This document shows positions 53,810 through 63,949 of a stretch of 64,000 bases of DNA, piece after piece. This DNA is from Lyngbya aestuarii BL J (GTDB lineage Bacteria; Cyanobacteriota; Cyanobacteriia; Cyanobacteriales; Microcoleaceae): the NCBI RefSeq assembly GCF_000478195.2, contig NZ_AUZM01000028.1, positions 1 through 64,000 of the forward strand, read 5' to 3'. The notes under the pieces were generated by a model. That model did not search any database. It was not told where the DNA came from and was given only the letters and a program-made list of their open reading frames with translations. A program made the translations under genes and the position numbers. Positions within the stretch are counted from its first letter, which is position 1, and each line of letters begins with the position of its first letter.

Positions 53810-55783
53810 TTAAGGACTCACACGCTGCCATAATCGTTGAATTTCTCGCAGTTCATTCGGCTGAGGAGCATCTAAAACAGAGATTTGAGGATTGACTTGA
53901 GCGCCAGGAATATGTTGATTCCAGGGACTGTTAGCAACCGATTCTAGATTAACATTAGAATAAATCGGTCGAAAACCATACTGAACAAATACCTTTTGTT
54001 GCTCAGGTTCACTCAGAAAATCCACAAATTTACTGGCAGCATGAGCAGTCCTTAAATTAACATGATGACGCAAAATTGCAGCCGTTGCAACGCTTTCGAT
54101 AGTGGGATTGAGATAATAGATTTGATAAGGTCTGCTTTGATTGATTCCCGCCTGTTGCCAACGAGATAAAGCAATACTTTCGTAAACAGTCGTCACATCA
54201 GCATCGTTGGGGCCGCGTGTGATAAATTCTTGCAATAAAATATCAGTTGAACGGGGCGGTTGATAAACAGATTGTTCGATCATTTTAAACAAAGATTCGG
54301 CGCTGGAAGTATTCAAGTTTAGCGAATTTCCCTGCTTGGAATTCAGCCACAAACTCAGCGTCACTTGACCACTATTAGAACGAGTCGGATCGGTCATTAC
54401 AAAATCAAAACTTCCCCAATTCTCTTGTCCGCCCATTTTATCCCAGGTTTTCGCTTGCATTGCTTGTTCAATTCGTTGCCAAGAAAATTGATTATTGGGA
54501 AACAATATTTTACCTCTTTCCGGCCAAGCAATTCCGACTAAAAAGGTTTTGGCGATCGCTTGGGGAGGTTTGTAAAAGAGTTCACCATCATTTGAGACTT
54601 GCCAACGTTGACTTAATTCCTCTAAAAATTCTTGACTAGCTGGAATTAAAACTGTAGGCTTAAAATCATTATTTTGATGAATGTAATTATTCACCATATC
54701 CGATGAACCTTGAAACTTAAGTTCGAGGTTAATATTAGGATATTTTTGTTCAAACTTCGTTTCTAGTTGTTGTAAAGGTTCGGCGAGTTCGCTACCACTC
54801 ACCACAACAATTTTCTGTTCAAGTCCGGGAATGGGTGCATAAGCTAAACCCACAACCAGACTCGCCAAAATCGTAGAAGTTATCAGTCGTTTATGTCGTT
54901 TAAGGGGAGAATTATTGTTCATTTTTGAAACCGTTTTTTGTCTCGTTTGCATTCCGAGTAACTGTTGAATTCGTGACTCCGTAGGAGGATGAGTTGAGAA
55001 TAACTGATTAAACATTTTCCCCTGAAAGGGATTAATAATCAAAAGAGAAGCATAGGTCGCTTGGCTGGAAAAAGGGATTTTTTGACTCTTTTCTATTCGT
55101 TCCAATGCTTTCGCTAAAGCCCGGGGATTTCCGGTTAATGAAGCGGCTCCCGCATCGGCTGCATATTCGCGAGTTCGAGAAATCGATAATCGGATTAATG
55201 TTGCAGTAATGGGCGCTAAAAGAACCATTAACAGCAAGGAAAATTGACGCAAAGGATTTGCACTTCTTAAATTAAAAATACTGCCTAAAAAGACCGTAGT
55301 TCCCAACTGTGTTAACAGCGAAATGGCTCCGGCTAATGTGGCTGCAATGGTTACAATTAACGGATCTCTGTGTTTAATATGGCTGATTTCATGGGCGATA
55401 ACTGCTTCTAATTCATCTTCGTGAAGCATTCTTAATAATCCCTCCGTTATCCCGATAACAGAGTTTTCTGGATTGCGTCCAGAAGCAAAAGCATTCGCCA
55501 TAGATGACGGAATAATATAGACTTTGGGAACGGGTAAATCAGCACGATAACAGAGTAATTTAACAATCGGATCGAGTAATTTTTTTTCTGGGGAATTGGG
55601 AGAACGAGCCTGATAAACCGACAAGACAATTTTATCGGAATGAAACCAGAGATAAAAGTTGATTCCAATAGCAATAACTAAACCAATCCCCGCACCCATT
55701 ACACCTCCAATGAGTAAATAACCCATGAGGATAATTAATCCAGTCAAGAAACCCAGTAATGCTGTTGTTTTAATGAAGTTCAT
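53810..55783 (-). CDS. HtpX-type M48 metalloprotease fused to a periplasmic solute-binding domain
   Basis: About 657 residues. The N-terminal part (1-about 290) is HtpX-like: two hydrophobic segments (about 8-45), the zinc site HEISH (His131, Glu132, His135) and a third-ligand Glu in SRTREYAADAGAAS. A further membrane segment (about 300-318) leads to a substrate-binding-protein domain of the type-11 or molybdate-like class (about 325-650; IVVVSGSELAEPLQQL, TDPTRSNSG, YGFRPIYS). The start ATG (55783) overlaps the TAA stop of the upstream gene by one base (TAATG), with GGAG before it. The binding domain is homologous to that of the vWA lipoprotein in the same cluster. Confidence 0.9.
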   Translation of the reverse strand: MNFIKTTALLGFLTGLIILMGYLLIGGVMGAGIGLVIAIGINFYLWFHSDKIVLSVYQARSPNSPEKKLLDPIVKLLCYRADLPVPKVYIIPSSMANAFASGRNPENSVIGITEGLLRMLHEDELEAVIAHEISHIKHRDPLIVTIAATLAGAISLLTQLGTTVFLGSIFNLRSANPLRQFSLLLMVLLAPITATLIRLSISRTREYAADAGAASLTGNPRALAKALERIEKSQKIPFSSQATYASLLIINPFQGKMFNQLFSTHPPTESRIQQLLGMQTRQKTVSKMNNNSPLKRHKRLITSTILASLVVGLAYAPIPGLEQKIVVVSGSELAEPLQQLETKFEQKYPNINLELKFQGSSDMVNNYIHQNNDFKPTVLIPASQEFLEELSQRWQVSNDGELFYKPPQAIAKTFLVGIAWPERGKILFPNNQFSWQRIEQAMQAKTWDKMGGQENWGSFDFVMTDPTRSNSGQVTLSLWLNSKQGNSLNLNTSSAESLFKMIEQSVYQPPRSTDILLQEFITRGPNDADVTTVYESIALSRWQQAGINQSRPYQIYYLNPTIESVATAAILRHHVNLRTAHAASKFVDFLSEPEQQKVFVQYGFRPIYSNVNLESVANSPWNQHIPGAQVNPQISVLDAPQPNELREIQRLWQRVSP

Positions 55784-56316
55784 TAGTTTTTTACTCCTTG
55801 GAATAAACGATAAAATAGAGTTAATACTCCCGGAACAAACCAAATAAAAACATAAATAATCCTTCCTAAATATTGTATTTTTATCCAGAAAGAAGAACCA
55901 TGTAAAGTGACTACCGATGCTCCCGTATTGATACCCAATTCAATAATTTTCCCCTCATCTTCACGCGCTTTATAATCATTAGAGCCATAATCTTTAAAAA
56001 AAATCTCCTCGCCCTCTTTAGGGGTAATGTAGGCTTCATAGTTGATTTCTTTATAAGATGTACCTTCGGAATCTCTACGAATGATCTCCTTTGTTTTTAC
56101 TTGAAAAGTTGATAGTCGAAAAGGAGGCGATGAATCTGATAAGAAACCGAATAGATATTGATTATCAAATTGACAAGTGACATAATTTCGTTCTAATCGT
56201 TCACAAGTTAACTGAGTTGAACTACCGAAGAACAGTATTAATATTGGCAAACCAATAACTGTTATCAATAGAGTATTTTTGTCGGTTGGTTTTGTCCTGG
56301 TTCTAGTCATACTCAA
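55783..56316 (-). CDS. Small membrane protein of the sensor-protease cluster, unknown function
   Basis: A 177-residue protein with one hydrophobic segment near the N-terminus (about 16-34), a soluble middle (STQLTCERLERNYVTCQFDNQYLFGFLSD, with two Cys) and a second segment at the C-terminus (about 150-170). Its stop codon is overlapped by the start of the HtpX fusion gene, so translation is coupled. No family is recognised. It is presumably an envelope component of the same cluster. Confidence 0.75.
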   Translation of the reverse strand: MSMTRTRTKPTDKNTLLITVIGLPILILFFGSSTQLTCERLERNYVTCQFDNQYLFGFLSDSSPPFRLSTFQVKTKEIIRRDSEGTSYKEINYEAYITPKEGEEIFFKDYGSNDYKAREDEGKIIELGINTGASVVTLHGSSFWIKIQYLGRIIYVFIWFVPGVLTLFYRLFQGVKN

Positions 56317-56365: not shown

Positions 56366-57091
56366 TCAATTAATAAAAATATCCAGATTGGCTTGATAAT
56401 CATTCAGTTCATTACTCAAACTTCTCAATTCTTGCAAATCTTTTGAATTACTCAAGTCAGCCGTTCTCAACTTATTCTGAAGCTTTTGTAACACACCTGC
56501 CGAGTTTTGAATGCTCGTAGAAAGGCTAATAATTTTAGCTTCGCGAGTATCTTGACCCGCTTGAACTAACGCCATATTGCGTTCTAAACTTGCTGCTAAC
56601 TGCTCCAAATTTTGACGGGTAATACCCGAACTCGAACGAATTTTACTTTTCACCTCTAAAAGCTGTTTTTCCAGTTCATTAACCGAGAGTAAAGACTCCT
56701 GTTCCGGTAAACGTTCGGCAATTTTATCAATTTTTTGGGGTAATTCAATAGTGCGATCGCAAATGTCCTGAACCGCCACCAAAACCTCGATATTAAAAGA
56801 GGTTTTATTCATTAACTTATTGGCTTCCTGACGCAATTCTTCGGCTTTGATAGCTAGATTTTGACTGGAGACTTTCAACAGTTCTACTTCTTGTTGTAGT
56901 TGCTGTTGAGCAATTGTTTTCGCCTCCGGTTCTCGGGATTTTAAAACCGATGCAGTCGCCACCGTAACCACTGCGACTGTAGGAAGGATAATCTTATTAG
57001 ATAACCCCGCCAAACGAACACCCGCAACCAGAGTAATTCCTCCCATCAAAACAGCAATAGGATAATAGATTGGATTCGCTAATTTAATCAT
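56366..57091 (-). CDS. Membrane-anchored coiled-coil protein
   Basis: A 241-residue protein with a hydrophobic N-terminus (about 8-50) and a helical, Gln/Glu/Leu-rich remainder typical of coiled coils (about 58-100, 120-240; LQQEVELLKVSSQNLAIKAEELRQEANKLM). No enzymatic motif. It lies between the vWA lipoprotein gene (29 bases upstream) and the small membrane protein gene (49 bases downstream). It could act as scaffold for the other membrane proteins; this is inference. Confidence 0.78.
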   Translation of the reverse strand: MIKLANPIYYPIAVLMGGITLVAGVRLAGLSNKIILPTVAVVTVATASVLKSREPEAKTIAQQQLQQEVELLKVSSQNLAIKAEELRQEANKLMNKTSFNIEVLVAVQDICDRTIELPQKIDKIAERLPEQESLLSVNELEKQLLEVKSKIRSSSGITRQNLEQLAASLERNMALVQAGQDTREAKIISLSTSIQNSAGVLQKLQNKLRTADLSNSKDLQELRSLSNELNDYQANLDIFIN

Positions 57092-57120: not shown

Positions 57121-58815
57121 TTAAAACTCAACTTGTAAATCTGCCATCAAAGTAGAAATCGTTTCCGGATCTCCCTGGCGATAATAACCGCTATTCAAGT
57201 CAGCAATTTCCTGTAAAACTGTTGAATTAAACTCGCCTTTTTTTCCATAGCCAATCGTAAAAAAGGCAATTCGTTGATCCGTATTAAAGCCTGTTTTTTT
57301 GAGTTCTTGTTGAAGTTTATCTAAAGAAATTTGAGATGCAGAATCTTCTCCATCCGTCAAAATAATCACCGCATTAATCGCATCCGGTTGTTGGTTTTGT
57401 TGCAGCCAAGTTTGAGCAGATAAAGTTGCATCATACAATTTTGTACCGCCTTCCGCTTTCAAATTATTAATAAATAGCATTCCTTGATTGCGTCCTTCTG
57501 ACGTTCCATCTACCACAACAGGCGGGCGAATTTCCGAGTCAAAATCAATCAGCGCAATTCTTTCTTTCACCCCCAAACTTTCGATATAATATCGCAAAGT
57601 ATTCTGAACTCCCGATAACTTTCTCCCCACCATTGAACCCGAAGAATCGACAACAATCACAACTTTTGAAGGTTTTTTTGCAAATTCTTGCCAAGACTTT
57701 AACATCGCCTCTACCACCTCCGGTTCCGGCGATCGCAAAGAATCATATCGAGCATTGGGATCGACTCCAAATTGAGGCGAAAATTTAGCCCCCAAAGCCA
57801 CTCCCGGCACACCGGGCCTCAATCCAAATTCAGTTGCTATTTTTTGAGCTTCAGGCGATCGCAAATACTCAATTATTTGTTCTGCTGCGGCTTGTTCATC
57901 CGCACTCACCCAAGGCGCATTTGGCAAAATTGCTCGCATATTTGAAGTAAAAGTAGATCGGGGATAAATCGCTTCATACTGAACTAAATTACTTTTTTTA
58001 TTTGTATTAGCCGCAATCACAGAAGACTCATAAACCGATGCAATTGACGCCCAAAATGAACCATTTTTCACCATATCAGAAGCCAAAGAATTCGTTGAAA
58101 TTCCGTAGCGAGTAACTTTACTTTGAATTTGTTGAACTTGGGATTGATACTGCTGGATATTTTCTACAGTTAATTGTTCGGGGGGTTTGTTCGCAACCGA
58201 AGCAAATTGAGTCACTAAAGTTTGTAAACCGGAATTAGAACGAGTCGGCGCCGTTTGTACAAAATGAATGGGCAATAAAGGACTGTTGGGATCGAGATCT
58301 TGATGAGTTTTTGCATTCAGTAATGCTTGGTATAAATTCTCTTGTTTGCGTAATCCGACCGCGACTTCTGAAGGCACCATAAACACCATTGGACTATTTG
58401 CTAAAAGCGGCGCATCGGTGACTTGGGGAATGTAATTTTGTCCGGGGAAAATCTGATTAATTTGATAGCGGAGTTGAGTCAGATAAATGTCTCCATCTAC
58501 AGAGATTAATGTCGGAAATTCGGGTGCTTCTGGGGGTAAAGTTCCGGCTTTGAATTGTTCGGCGAGAGAGACAACCTTACTCACAACATCTCCGCTCCCT
58601 TTGGCTTCACAACTTAGGTAAAAGGCTTGACCATTTTCTAGCTTATGTTTTTGTCGGTTAAACTGATGAGCCGCTTGGCTACAGAACTTTTCTAAAGCAC
58701 TTCCAACTAAAAATTTAACCTCGATTTCTTCTCCACTAGAAGCAGAATTACAAGCATTAAGCAACAGCAGTCCTGATGCGACCATCAGACCTGTAATTAA
58801 GTGATGAGTTTTCAT
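57121..58815 (-). CDS. Lipoprotein with solute-binding domain and von Willebrand factor A domain
   Basis: A 564-residue protein. The signal ends in the lipobox LLNAC (lipid Cys22). Residues about 32-355 form a type-11 substrate-binding domain (KFLVGSALEKFCSQAA, TAPTRSNSGLQTL, ASVYESS, EFGLRPGVPGV). Residues about 382-560 are a vWA domain with an intact metal site: DSSGSM at 390-395, Thr in GGTKLYDA, and Asp in ILTDGEDS. The site should bind Mg2+ and a ligand. Blocks RSNSG, VYES and FGLRP match the binding domain of the HtpX fusion protein in the same cluster. Likely membrane-anchored in the periplasm. Confidence 0.92.
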   Translation of the reverse strand: MKTHHLITGLMVASGLLLLNACNSASSGEEIEVKFLVGSALEKFCSQAAHQFNRQKHKLENGQAFYLSCEAKGSGDVVSKVVSLAEQFKAGTLPPEAPEFPTLISVDGDIYLTQLRYQINQIFPGQNYIPQVTDAPLLANSPMVFMVPSEVAVGLRKQENLYQALLNAKTHQDLDPNSPLLPIHFVQTAPTRSNSGLQTLVTQFASVANKPPEQLTVENIQQYQSQVQQIQSKVTRYGISTNSLASDMVKNGSFWASIASVYESSVIAANTNKKSNLVQYEAIYPRSTFTSNMRAILPNAPWVSADEQAAAEQIIEYLRSPEAQKIATEFGLRPGVPGVALGAKFSPQFGVDPNARYDSLRSPEPEVVEAMLKSWQEFAKKPSKVVIVVDSSGSMVGRKLSGVQNTLRYYIESLGVKERIALIDFDSEIRPPVVVDGTSEGRNQGMLFINNLKAEGGTKLYDATLSAQTWLQQNQQPDAINAVIILTDGEDSASQISLDKLQQELKKTGFNTDQRIAFFTIGYGKKGEFNSTVLQEIADLNSGYYRQGDPETISTLMADLQVEF

Positions 58816-58926: not shown

Positions 58927-61560
58927 TTAAAAACCGTTTAATTTAATAATTTCAAACATATTATCCTCCCCGTTATTTTTAACCACGACTAACACACTCT
59001 TCGTTGATTTAACATCATTTGAGGATTCAAAATAAATCTCTCCTTCTGCTCCTTGGGCGAAAAAATTCGGACTCGAAAGCTTTTGATAAAGCTGAATACG
59101 ACTTAAATTTCCGCGACTTTCAATCAAGGCTTTAATTATCGCTTTAGTGGCATCATATGAAGTAGCAGTTCGCCAGTTTACAGAGCCTTTCCAAAAGCGT
59201 TGAGCTTGTTGGGAAAATTCAGAATCCGGTCTTCGATGCCAGGGAATGGCAATGGTAAGATTTCCGTTAAAAGCTTCTTCACCCGCATCTTTTAAAGTTC
59301 GGAAGCTGTAAACAGAATCTCCGCCTAAAAGTTGTAAATCTCCATTCGTATTGTTAATAATTCCAATCGCTTTAGTGAGGCTTTCATCTGTAGCTGGCAC
59401 TAATAACAAGACTTCAGCACCCTGATCTTTTGCCTTTTCTACACAGTCCGCTGCACTAAAAACACGGCTCGATAAATCGCATTTTTGAACAAAAGAATTA
59501 GGATAGAGTAACTCCTCAAATTCATTGCTTAGAGATTCACTGTAGGCATTTCCCGAAACATAAGCAACTGCTACTTTTGCATCTTGTCCGAGTTGCTGAC
59601 GCATATATTCAAATAACTGTTGAGCCGCCATGCGATCGCTCGGAACTGTCCGAAAAACATAACGACTAAAATTAGATAAACTCACCGAAGTGCTGGTGGG
59701 AGAAATCGCAACCAATCGATGTTTATCATAAATTTCTCCGGCTTTCAGTGTCATATCGCTCGAATAGTGACCAATCACCCCTAATATATTTTGATTGTTG
59801 ACAAAAGCTTCAGCGACTTTTTCGGCAACTTTCGGGTCATATTCATCATCAGCAATTGTCACCAGTAAAAAAGTTTCATTGATGAAACCTTTGGTACAGT
59901 TAAATTGAGTTTGAAGTTCGGAAATTGCTTGATAAACTTCTTCCAAACCACAATTAATCTCAGTTTGAGCTTGAGCGACACCTCGTAAAATTTCTTGGGA
60001 AACATTGGGTTCACTGCCAATCGGTACACTCACACCAATTTCAACTTTTTTCCCCGTGTTCGTCTTGACTTTTTCTTGAATAATTGCATTATTCAAATAA
60101 ATGAGAGTTTCCGGATCGTTAGGATTTTCATTCAGCGCCCGAATAAAATTATTGATCGCCCCTCTATAATCTCGATTATTGTAGTCAAGAATTCCGGCTT
60201 TCTTTGCAGGGTTTACATTAGATGAAATTAGAAGCTTTTCACCCTGGCTAATTTGATTTTCTATTTTTTGGGGAGTAAGATATTGAGGTTTGTCTACTAG
60301 AATCTGATAGAAAATAGACGCAAATATTGTAACTAATGCCAAACTCGCTGTTATCCCCAACGGTTTGATCCAAGCTTGTAGGAGGGCTTTAGGCTTAATA
60401 AAATCTTGCCAAATCAGCGAGTTGCTAGAAAGCGTGACTTCCTGTACGCAAAGGGTAGGCAGCCAGGAAACACCCGGATAAGACTTTTCAAAACCAGATT
60501 CAATCAGTCTTTCTCTCGAAAAATGAATCGAATGAAACAGCGATTTGTTGTTGCTAAATTCTTCAAAAAAATACTTCAAAAACTTGACCGCCACTTCATC
60601 AGGAATCGGTTCTCGCATCACAATACTTCGAGGTAAACCCAACTCCGCCAGTTGGTGGGCGAGTCCTAAACCATCGCAAGAATTGAAAATTGCCAGTTGT
60701 AACCCCTGTTTAATTGCTATTCCAAAAGAACTTTTAAATTCTTCAATGGAAATTGCATCCTGAGTATTATTTAATTCAATCTTGCCAATTGTTCCATCAG
60801 GATTGGAACAACTATGACCCGAAAAAATAAATAAGTGATAACCGTTTTCGTCTCGCAATGCTTGTGAAAGTTCTTCGCGAGTCGGTTGTTTTAAAAAAGT
60901 AACTTGTGCATTTTTTTTCTCTAAAGCTTGAATGACTTCTTCATCAAACTGAGTATTAATTCCTTCACTATTCCCAATTAAAGCTAACACTTTAACTTGA
61001 GAATATTGACGAATGGGCTGAATTCGTGTCCGGCTGCTTTGGAGACGAACCGCCACTTCCGCCTGAGGAAAACGATATTTGAATAAGTCCCATTCTTGCC
61101 AGGGAAGACGGCGCAGTTGAGAGTGGTCTGTATCGAGAAAAAGACGGGCTTCTTTTCCGGTTTTTTGTAAGTGACTGAGAACGGCAATTAATTCATCTCT
61201 CAGGGGTTGCCAAGCCGAATCTTGACAATTTAGCCATTCGTTTAAACTATTAACAACCGATTCTTTTTGCTCGGAACTTCTCGCTCTGGCTTCAGAATCG
61301 GTGATAATTTTTTTCGGGTTAATTCGATGACTAACAACCTGACGAACCGCTTCAAATTGACTGTAGGAATATTGCCACTGACTGTAAGCCTGATGACGAT
61401 AATCGGAAGATTCAAATTGTACTTTTGAGGCTTCTAAATCACCGGGTAAAGCGGGCAAATAACCATCGAGGGAATTAATTTGAGCATCGCTCATCGCCAG
61501 CCGAACTCTAAATTTATTAACTCCCTGATCCCAGAATACAAGCACTTTGATAACTGTCAT
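58927..61560 (-). CDS. CHAT-domain protease fused through a transmembrane segment to TPR and a periplasmic binding protein domain
   Basis: An 877-residue protein. The N-terminal half is a caspase-like CHAT domain: catalytic His249 in IFSGHS and Cys295 in FNSCDGLGLAHQ, followed by MREPIPDEVAVKFL. One transmembrane segment follows (about 399-420, LALVTIFASIFYQIL), then a TPR-like helix pair (about 455-495), then a type I periplasmic-binding-protein domain of the Leu/Ile/Val-receptor kind (about 505-870; VEIGVSVPIGSEPN, ILGVIGHYSS, AISPTSTS). The layout places the protease in the cytoplasm and the ligand domain outside it. It is 19 bases downstream of the DUF1822 gene. Confidence 0.93.
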   Translation of the reverse strand: MTVIKVLVFWDQGVNKFRVRLAMSDAQINSLDGYLPALPGDLEASKVQFESSDYRHQAYSQWQYSYSQFEAVRQVVSHRINPKKIITDSEARARSSEQKESVVNSLNEWLNCQDSAWQPLRDELIAVLSHLQKTGKEARLFLDTDHSQLRRLPWQEWDLFKYRFPQAEVAVRLQSSRTRIQPIRQYSQVKVLALIGNSEGINTQFDEEVIQALEKKNAQVTFLKQPTREELSQALRDENGYHLFIFSGHSCSNPDGTIGKIELNNTQDAISIEEFKSSFGIAIKQGLQLAIFNSCDGLGLAHQLAELGLPRSIVMREPIPDEVAVKFLKYFFEEFSNNKSLFHSIHFSRERLIESGFEKSYPGVSWLPTLCVQEVTLSSNSLIWQDFIKPKALLQAWIKPLGITASLALVTIFASIFYQILVDKPQYLTPQKIENQISQGEKLLISSNVNPAKKAGILDYNNRDYRGAINNFIRALNENPNDPETLIYLNNAIIQEKVKTNTGKKVEIGVSVPIGSEPNVSQEILRGVAQAQTEINCGLEEVYQAISELQTQFNCTKGFINETFLLVTIADDEYDPKVAEKVAEAFVNNQNILGVIGHYSSDMTLKAGEIYDKHRLVAISPTSTSVSLSNFSRYVFRTVPSDRMAAQQLFEYMRQQLGQDAKVAVAYVSGNAYSESLSNEFEELLYPNSFVQKCDLSSRVFSAADCVEKAKDQGAEVLLLVPATDESLTKAIGIINNTNGDLQLLGGDSVYSFRTLKDAGEEAFNGNLTIAIPWHRRPDSEFSQQAQRFWKGSVNWRTATSYDATKAIIKALIESRGNLSRIQLYQKLSSPNFFAQGAEGEIYFESSNDVKSTKSVLVVVKNNGEDNMFEIIKLNGF

Positions 61561-61579: not shown

Positions 61580-62521
61580 TTAAATCTTAAAATTTTCGAT
61601 AATCTTATCTTGATTTAAGGTGATTTGTAAACTAAATTGTTCCTGCGGTTTACAACCGACTTCCAACTCAATCCACTGATCTTCTTCTCTGGCTTGAGTC
61701 TTCATACAAGCGACTCCAGATTCATCGAGTACACTCACCTCCAAACCCGCAGGTAAATAAATGTTGTCTTCAAAGGAATAAAGTCTCATTTTAACATCAA
61801 CTTCTTCTGTAGAATTTTCGCTGACTCTTACAGTCAATAAAATAGCTGGCTTGGTGGGATCATTTTCCCATTGAATCACTTTACCTCGAATAAAGCTTTG
61901 TTCTAAGGACTTCGCAGTTCGGAAATTAGCCTCTCTTGCTGGTACTGAATTTGAACTTCTGACTGCATTCGGAATAGGTAATAATTGTATCGGTTGCCAT
62001 TCAGATTGAGTTAGGTTTTTCCACAAATTTTTCCATTTGCGATGCCATTCAATTGTATCAATTAAATGATCAAGGGAATGAAGCTGATTGAGAGGGATAG
62101 ATTCAGGAGGACAAGCAATTTCTTGAGCGGAAACAAACCCTAATAACTTGACTTGTTGGAGGTCTTCACTCAACTGAACCGTAACATAACCTAAACGGTT
62201 ATCAGCAACTTCTGGAGAAATTTCTAAATGATCTTGATTGGGTAAAATCGGAATACATTCTAGTTTACCTAAATGAGGTAAAACTAAGTCAGCTACATTC
62301 AACATTGCCCTTTTAGTAGGATGCCAACAGTCTCCTTGATCAATTGCAGTAGAAATGGATAACCATCCCAGATAATCTCGCACCGCAACAACCGCTAATG
62401 TATTGAGATAAACCTGTTTTCCTTTCTGCGGAGTAGCTTGTTCTCTAGCAAATTGTTGGGCAAAACGGTGAGCATCTTGGCTAATCGGAACAGGTAAAGT
62501 TAAAGAGAAAGTTTGGTTCAT
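61580..62521 (-). CDS. DUF1822 family protein
   Basis: A 313-residue protein of the cyanobacterial DUF1822 family (LNTLAVVAVRDYLGWLSI, GYVTVQLSEDLQQVKLLGF, a C-terminal beta region with VRVSENSTEEVDVKMRLY). No signal peptide. The function is unknown. Its start overlaps the stop of the sigma-like gene by four bases (ATGA), so the two are translationally coupled; this pairing with a sigma-like protein is a recurring arrangement in filamentous cyanobacteria, as I recall it. It is followed by the CHAT fusion gene. Confidence 0.9.
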   Translation of the reverse strand: MNQTFSLTLPVPISQDAHRFAQQFAREQATPQKGKQVYLNTLAVVAVRDYLGWLSISTAIDQGDCWHPTKRAMLNVADLVLPHLGKLECIPILPNQDHLEISPEVADNRLGYVTVQLSEDLQQVKLLGFVSAQEIACPPESIPLNQLHSLDHLIDTIEWHRKWKNLWKNLTQSEWQPIQLLPIPNAVRSSNSVPAREANFRTAKSLEQSFIRGKVIQWENDPTKPAILLTVRVSENSTEEVDVKMRLYSFEDNIYLPAGLEVSVLDESGVACMKTQAREEDQWIELEVGCKPQEQFSLQITLNQDKIIENFKI

Positions 62522-63204
62522 TTTTCTAGTCCAAAGCGTTTGCTAATTTGATCACCAATCGTTTGTAATAAAGGAAGACATTTCCGCTTCCAGTGAGAGT
62601 AAAGCGTTTGGTTGCTGATATTATATTCTCGGGCGATCTCAGAAATTTTATGAGGAGGTTGTTGTAAAAGTAGGCGTATTGCTAAAATTTGGCAATGACA
62701 TTCTGGTTGTTTTTTGGGATAACAATTTTTGAGCAGATTTTCGGGATCTTTTTCAATATACTCCCACACTGTATCCCCAATACTTAAACGTCTTTCCTTT
62801 TGAGTTTGTTCGATCCATCCCTCAAGATTGGTGATGGCATTTGGATCTTCTAAGCGATCCATTAGAGTGGTTGATTCTCCCTCTTTGTTGCTGATTGGAC
62901 GATCTAAACTTGGAGTATGATTAGTCGTAAACAAATCTCTAACCCTCCATTTTAAATAACCATTAATCCAACGAATAAGGCTCTGCTCAATAGAAGGAGG
63001 ACGGGGTTCAAAAGATTGAATGTTTTTACACACCCATTCTAGGGTACGATTGAGCGCCTCAGAATAGTCCCGATGGGAGGATCGGTATAAATCTGGATGT
63101 CCTTGGATGATAATCAGGAGTCGAGTTAAGGCTTTGCGTCCTTTGGAACTGGTGTGTTCAAATTGCTGGAGTTGCTCGATTAAGTCTTGAATTTGTTGAT
63201 CCAC
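62518..63204 (-). CDS. Sigma-70-like regulatory protein
   Basis: A 228-residue protein with sigma-region-2-like helices (YSEALNRTLEWVCKNIQSFEPRPPSIEQSLIRWINGYLKWRVRDLF) and a C-terminal helix-turn-helix of region-4 type (HKISEIAREYNISNQTLYSHWKRKCLPLL). A longer frame opens at a TTG at 63408, but homologues begin near VDQQIQDLIEQL. GGAG lies 10 bases before a GTG at 63204, which is chosen; the ATG at 63231 is an alternative. It is the first gene of the cluster and overlaps the DUF1822 gene. It may direct transcription or act as an adaptor protein. Confidence 0.85.
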   Translation of the reverse strand: MDQQIQDLIEQLQQFEHTSSKGRKALTRLLIIIQGHPDLYRSSHRDYSEALNRTLEWVCKNIQSFEPRPPSIEQSLIRWINGYLKWRVRDLFTTNHTPSLDRPISNKEGESTTLMDRLEDPNAITNLEGWIEQTQKERRLSIGDTVWEYIEKDPENLLKNCYPKKQPECHCQILAIRLLLQQPPHKISEIAREYNISNQTLYSHWKRKCLPLLQTIGDQISKRFGLEK

Positions 63205-63949
63205 AGCGCGCGCTCTCCTCTGTAGCTGCATCTCTATATGGTTTTGTTGTGGGTGATAAACCCGAAGATGCTTTGAGTGTAACGGACAAGGAGGAGACAA
63301 AGAGTAGTATGGCTCTCTTAGTCGGGTTCGTGTCATAAAATTGATAGACTGATTAGGATATACTGCAATATCAGTGAGGTCAGTCAAATTTATGAACAGT
63401 TTGCTCAATGTGATTTTCGGCTAAATCTCAAAACCCATAAAGCCAAGTATTCAAGGCTTCTGAGAGCTTCATCCGCTTGATCCTCAACTTCGAGATTTCA
63501 GTTGATTTAGACGAATATACGGATGTTAGTGTACAAGGAAAATCTCATCACTTCCCCAAATTCACTAATTTTTACTTCTCAATCATGTCCAACTCATGTC
63601 CCAATCTTTACCGAAGCTTTACACAGAAAGCCTTTAAACTTTACAAAAACATCTAGTATCTTTACAATAAATACTCCTATAATTGCAGTTAAGAGAAGCG
63701 AAGCATTAATTGAACTTTAGAAAAGATTTGACATCTAAAATCTTGGTTAAAGAGCGATTAGTGAATCAATTCAGGAACGCATTCAGACGGAAATTGAAGC
63801 TGTTGGTGTCTCGATATCAGCAACTAAACTTCAAGTGAAGCTTCCCATACAAAAGTTCACTCCCTGCCCCAGTGCAAAATCCTACACTGATCACAGAGAG
63901 TTAATCGGGGGATCTAATCAATCTAGCCATTTAGTCATAACTTTTACCT
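63205..63949. other. Intergenic region between the sensor cluster and a glycosyltransferase gene
   Basis: This region separates divergent genes and should contain their promoters. The part up to 63408 is open in the sigma-like frame, so the gene may be longer. A 68-codon frame without a start (63751-63956, SESIQERIQTEIEAVGVSIS) looks protein-like but is not recognisable. No RNA gene is seen. The AT-rich stretch 63530-63720 shows nothing recognisable. Confidence 0.5.

Follow-up and report, generated by a model that had tools for sequence, protein, structure and literature searches.

The HtpX-SBP fusion of Lyngbya aestuarii BL J is real, conserved and rare. It combines the usual catalytic parts of an HtpX-type membrane protease (family M48) with a solute-binding protein (SBP) domain in a new arrangement, and its function is proposed here from the sequence. 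The fusion lies within the 64,000 nucleotides that were analysed (contig NZ_AUZM01000028.1, positions 1 to 64,000), referred to as the window. As the first-pass annotation had claimed, HtpX and a solute-binding domain share one frame, which runs on the minus strand from an ATG at 55783 to a stop codon at 53812-53810 with no internal stops, and both Pfam domains score above their gathering thresholds. The features of the fusion gene and of the genes next to it are as follows.

53810..55783, minus strand: HtpX-TM-SBP fusion gene, 657 aa, single uninterrupted frame
54935..55783, minus strand: HtpX/M48 membrane protease half, aa 1-283, from Pfam PF01435 and NCBIfam HtpX models
55379..55393, minus strand: zinc-binding HEISH, aa 131-135, from a motif scan
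55166..55168, minus strand: third zinc ligand, Glu206 in REYAAD, from a motif scan
54971..54991, minus strand: HPx4R active-site plug motif, HPPTESR, aa 265-271, with a role in BepA described in an excerpt of PMC7950410
54887..54934, minus strand: predicted cytoplasmic linker, aa 284-299, from the junction alignment, containing Met288
54830..54886, minus strand: transmembrane anchor, aa 300-318, the same as that of the SBP when it stands alone, N side basic
53813..54811, minus strand: SBP_bac_11-type domain (SBPc), aa 325-657, predicted periplasmic, from profile matches
54368..54391, minus strand: DPTRSNSG motif, occurring as TAPTRSNSG in the neighbouring SBP-VWA protein
55783..56316, minus strand: P177, small, hydrophobic at both termini, with a CERLERNYVTC motif, overlapping the fusion gene by 1 base
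56366..57091, minus strand: CC241, with a hydrophobic N-terminal region and a probable coiled coil, cassette gene 2
57121..58815, minus strand: SBP-VWA protein with a lipobox-like LLNAC, cassette gene 1
58927..61560, minus strand: protein with a CHAT domain, a hydrophobic segment and Peripla_BP_6, outside the conserved cassette

The start of the fusion gene is well supported by an AAGGAG ribosome-binding-type sequence ten bases 5' of the ATG and by the single base which this ATG shares with the stop codon of the preceding gene, P177. A frameshift or other assembly artefact was ruled out, since the same full-length protein is found in three further cyanobacterial genomes, which belong to three other families and in one case to another order. 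Full-length fusions are thus carried by the window genome (family f1), G431 (f6, 60% identical), G774 (f5, 61%) and G968 (f18), the last being of the same class as the window genome and of another order. All four exceed both Pfam gathering cutoffs and have the HExxH, the third-ligand Glu and the HPx4R motif (4/4), at an identity of 52-61% between their HtpX halves. They represent 4 of the 177 genomes bearing SBPc (172 when five with fragments only are left out), a figure which pools SBPc matches obtained with differing E limits (1e-10, 1e-10, 1e-90, 1e-90 and 1e-40; genome handles G000 to G1058). A further fusion suggested by a long open frame in G509 was rejected, the SBPc gene there having its own ATG and 370 aa. 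The Genome_contigs scan returned one ordinary HtpX, from Salinisphaera, with patterns that were N-terminal only and hence give no gauge of fusion frequency. Relatives of SBPc or SBP-VWA were not found in viral contigs, where HtpX was found four times, and the plasmid search gave 115 records with matches, none reaching 80% of the query. The fusion, the cassette and the CHAT genes had no PADLOC defence-system matches; two weak PADLOC matches of P177 to MTase_II (E 0.003-0.006) are not believed.

In the protease half, Peptidase_M48 of Pfam matches aa 71-277 (E 2e-32; 112.9 bits vs a gathering score of 20.3), and the best NCBIfam HtpX equivalog match spans the full length (1-283) with 297.2 bits, below the cutoff of 369. 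By these matches the half is an HtpX-type M48 protease and not a curated HtpX equivalog. The HExxH, the Glu and HPx4R are all present, in agreement with the earlier statement that HEISH and the third ligand are kept, and the view that the protein looks active is upheld by the intact catalytic residues in the fusions of four genomes; the window fusion is likely an active protease bearing a periplasmic SBP-like domain. Hydropathy indicates strong hydrophobic segments within the HtpX half, which shares 58-61% identity with the corresponding halves in G431 and G774 and 47% with the ordinary HtpX of its own genome. When the modelled whole fusion, in which partial confidence was limited to the HtpX half, was compared with known structures by Foldseek, ZMPSTE24/Ste24 came top, followed by HtpX (3cqb) and BepA, with a weaker match to BlaR1 (E 0.04). 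An ordinary HtpX is also present in the window genome and in G431, and two are present in G968; the search of G774 at E <= 1e-20 gave no HtpX other than the fused one.

A single hydrophobic segment, aa 300-318, separates the two domains, four basic residues directly preceding it and one following it. The basic residues on its N side place the SBP half in the periplasm by the positive-inside rule, a topology predicted solely by hydropathy and these residues. In the three fusions aligned at the junction (window, G431 and G774), the junction consists of the cytoplasmic tail and anchor of SBPc, with basic residues preceding the anchor; the fourth (G968) was found later and its junction was read by eye. 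Met288 of the linker aligns with the initiator Met of the stand-alone SBP of G056 and is preceded by no clear ribosome-binding site. On this alignment, the cytoplasmic tail and the anchor to which HtpX is joined are those of the SBP protein itself. The "further transmembrane segment" noted earlier is the native anchor of a gene product that is usually separate. The linker is short, basic and dissimilar among the three aligned fusions, and Arg271 of the plug motif lies about 28 residues ahead of the anchor.

The C-terminal domain has the length of about 330 residues given in the first-pass annotation, and it matches solute-binding families: SBP_bac_11 of Pfam is matched at aa 325-605 (E 1.5e-19; 71.1 bits vs a gathering score of 25) over the whole profile (1-227 of 227). 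The description "molybdate-like" holds only at the level of the family. The models for ModA, WtpA and the sulfate- and phosphate-binding proteins, that is for binding of molybdate, tungstate, sulfate and phosphate, all match weakly and none comes near its cutoff (NCBIfam modA, 21.2-23.6 bits vs 62.5), so no ligand can be named. Profile matches to ModA (7tav) and to the sulfate-binding protein 1sbp were also obtained. The AlphaFold model of the SBP half had a mean pLDDT of 34.8 with an alignment of only 2 sequences, and a second model was below 50 across nearly all of the half; the fold assignment accordingly rests on the profile matches. A comparison by hhalign of SBPc with the SBP part of SBP-VWA gave a probability of 98.8 over 318 columns. 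Stretches of the RSNSG type and of the YE/VYES type show little or no variation among 26 rows of SBPc and 20 of SBP-VWA, as expected of a conserved binding cleft, and stand-alone SBPc likewise retains them. A DPTRSNSG-type pattern is present in three of the four fusions, G968 having no match to the pattern as written.

By gene neighbourhood, the SBP half corresponds to gene 3 of a conserved envelope cassette of three genes, which encode an SBP-VWA lipoprotein, a coiled-coil membrane protein (CC241) and a membrane-anchored SBP; it is the protease, and not the SBP domain, that is the unusual addition. In 53 similarity-grouped neighbourhoods the joint SBPc/SBP-VWA group occurred at 53/53 loci (16 family codes) and CC241 at 49/53 (15 family codes), and SBP-VWA and CC241 were the only strongly conserved companions of SBPc; an ABC transporter was not among the conserved genes of these neighbourhoods. 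The usual order is SBP-VWA, CC241, SBPc on one strand, with SBPc divergent in three f25 genomes. The SBP gene stands alone in nearly all of the genomes with SBPc, most genomes have the cassette without HtpX, and no unfused HtpX gene was found beside SBPc (0/61 neighbourhoods). No named system was matched by the cassette in the searches made. A decayed, duplicated relic is present in L065 (G054:C237:10659-12597), where SBPc-like fragments interrupted by many stops recur in several copies.

Upstream of the cassette in the window, the CHAT (caspase-like)-TM-Peripla_BP_6 gene, with its hydrophobic segment near aa 400, is a second, unrelated fusion of a protease-like and a binding-protein domain adjoining the first. 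CHAT-like or PBP-like pieces also occur near the cassette in L066, L068 and L069. Further upstream, at 61580-63408 on the same strand and with short gaps, are two proteins, one of DUF1822 and the other ending in a helix-turn-helix, which possibly share a transcription unit with the cassette. No BlaI-like repressor gene was recognised between 49.7 and 63.4 kb.

Other joinings involve the same end of SBPc. In three genomes of family f66 (G863, G822 and G854; loci L219, L220 and L221) CC241 runs in frame into SBPc, indicating that the N-side end of SBPc can carry partners and, together with the coiled coil, is probably cytoplasmic. In G949 (f18; L223:5030-6613) a frame of 527 residues consists of a P177-like start, a C-terminal piece of HtpX that retains the plug motif, and SBPc. 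It lacks the catalytic core, and Pfam detects SBP families only; judged by its domain content this is an HtpX-loss form, in which the loss of the protease is visible. Because G949 lost the core and kept the rest, and because the fusion occurs in only 4/177 genomes, the protease is dispensable to the cassette.

In an HtpX tree of 45 rows, the four fused halves group with two stand-alone HtpX of the genus g220 (support 90/86, not starred), the HtpX-LemA row of G803 adjoins this group (97/90), and 38 ordinary rows lie on the opposite side; in an earlier tree of 32 rows, three fused halves and g220 had a support of 98/92. This is support, not proof, that the HtpX halves form one unusual HtpX lineage, long branches being present. 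AU tests in which the fused rows were long branches rejected the grouping with the genome's own HtpX that a recent fusion from it would give (p 3e-89), and one of the G431 fused copy with the HtpX of its genus (p 1.3e-4). The fused HtpX rows as a clade without the g220 rows were also rejected (p 0.0067), as were the fused SBPc halves as one clade, i.e. a single origin followed by vertical descent (p 5e-10 for three, 9e-57 for four). In the SBPc tree the copies of the window genome, G431 and G968 fall with their own families and that of G774 with G622 of another family; the G431 locus retains neighbours that non-fused members of its family also have.

Two histories fit these results, either one old fusion with many losses of HtpX or recurrent joinings that each drew on the same HtpX lineage. 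An old P177-HtpX-SBP arrangement which repeatedly lost HtpX is preferred, from the visible loss in G949 and the distribution of P177. In the window and G968 the latter directly precedes the fused gene; it is broken in G431, is found inside the G949 frame, and stands ahead of SBPc without HtpX in G004, G390, G084 and G491. It is present at 4/5 HtpX-bearing loci vs 4/47 others (Fisher p 0.0012, for related loci and an idea that was post hoc). Against the old fusion stand the many losses required, the lack of P177 in G774, the lack of further HtpX remnants in 61 neighbourhoods, and the grouping of the HtpX of G431 with that of G968, of another order, contrary to kinship.

The active site of HtpX faces the cytoplasm. 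The leading reading, which is held tentatively, is that the fusion acts as a BlaR1-like membrane receptor-protease built from other parts. HtpX, with its active site in the cytoplasm, would be joined through the post-plug residues and the one TM anchor to a periplasmic SBP-type domain, and SBPc would be the third subunit beside the SBP-VWA lipoprotein and the coiled-coil membrane protein. A ligand or partner held in the periplasm by SBPc and SBP-VWA could shift the position of the anchor, and the shift would free or seat the plug and so switch cleavage of a cytoplasmic or membrane protein, perhaps the coiled-coil subunit. Such a role of the plug has a precedent in BepA, in which the plug histidine is described as a fourth zinc ligand, a tethered plug stops function and the plug must move for activity (excerpt of PMC7950410). 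The receptor-protease reading is supported by the full fusion in four families with motifs in 4/4, the junction at the SBPc tail, the joining of CC241 to this end of SBPc in f66, the conserved stretches of SBPc and SBP-VWA, the Foldseek matches, and the fused copy as sole HtpX of G774. It is weakened by the lack of any ligand model at cutoff, the low pLDDT of the SBP-half models, the occurrence in 4/177 genomes, the loss in G949, the lack of a repressor or target among the genes identified, and the ordinary HtpX of the window genome, G431 and G968. In its most specific form, an M48 counterpart of BlaR1 in which the periplasmic domain gates a cytoplasmic HtpX through the plug, together with SBP-VWA and the coiled-coil protein, as a cyanobacterial envelope-sensing system whose protease was lost in most lineages, the proposal is rather unlikely.

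Gating by a ligand may not be needed, simple tethering being nearly as likely. SBPc could recruit HtpX to the cassette complex, where the protease would serve in the local quality control of cassette or nearby membrane proteins, with the SBP domain perhaps binding protein partners and no small molecule. We regard this as quite possible: CC241 on the same end of SBPc in f66 suggests an end used for holding partners, the cassette lacks HtpX in most genomes, and HtpX is described as a membrane quality-control protease in E. coli (excerpt of PMC7950410). The junction close behind the plug, however, suits gating, and the binding-cleft-type motifs, which would also do so, are kept in stand-alone SBPc and are not discriminating. 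It is improbable that the fusion is a self-processing precursor in which HtpX cleaves the linker shortly after being made, giving a normal HtpX and a normal SBPc in coupled amounts. For BlaR1, self-cleavage is described within a loop that corresponds in position to the histidine loop of ZMPSTE24 (excerpt of PMC9834060), and the linker of the fusion is short, basic and variable, whereas a cut site might be conserved. An old fusion surviving by chance, without special function, in a few lineages that are losing it would account for the lost core of G949, the broken P177 of G431, the long branches and the rarity, but we give it little credence, as a relic would have decayed and the catalytic and plug motifs are intact in 4/4 at only 52-61% identity, one copy being the only HtpX found in its genome.

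M48 proteins with other extra domains are already known, one with a YARHG domain having been described (excerpt of PMC3355149); no report of an HtpX/M48 plus SBP_bac_11 fusion was found in the literature searched, in open-licence full texts. The targets and regulation of HtpX are poorly understood, the targets being called elusive in an excerpt of PMC7950410, and a natural fusion which ties HtpX to one definable envelope cassette offers a handle on its regulation, through the plug beside the anchor, and on its partners. The fusion resembles the M48B HtpX of E. coli and the canonical cyanobacterial ones in its full-length model match, HExxH, Glu ligand and HPx4R, and differs in scoring below the NCBIfam equivalog cutoffs, in carrying a TM and an SBP domain, and in grouping with the other fused copies and the two g220 copies apart from the 38 ordinary rows and the HtpX-LemA row. 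With the type-2 SBPs (SBP_bac_11 and the ModA-WtpA-sulfate-binding group) it shares the full SBP_bac_11 profile and the matches to 7tav and 1sbp, whereas SBPc is membrane anchored, has no ABC transporter in its conserved cassette and has the family-specific RSNSG motif. In G803 (L182:1501-3129), HtpX and LemA occur in one frame of 542 aa (Pfam M48 4e-35, LemA 6e-34); there too a C-terminal domain is joined to HtpX via a hydrophobic segment, but the domain is LemA, the locus is different and the branch in the HtpX tree is very long. A parallel in arrangement is BlaR1/MecR1 (M56), described in an excerpt of PMC9834060 as an N-terminal zinc metalloprotease facing the cytoplasm, coupled through a TM to a C-terminal extracellular sensor domain that can drive it. 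In the fusion a protease, a candidate TM and a C-terminal domain follow in this order, and the corresponding membrane side is predicted. The weak Foldseek match to BlaR1 and a weak Pfam Peptidase_M56 match point the same way, but at 18.7 bits, below the gathering score of 31, membership of M56 is excluded and the likeness is one of analogy. The fusion has M48 in place of M56, an SBP-type domain in place of the penicillin-binding sensor, and no BlaI-like repressor was found with it. If the receptor-protease reading is true, the principle of BlaR1, sensing outside and cutting inside, would extend to the M48 family.
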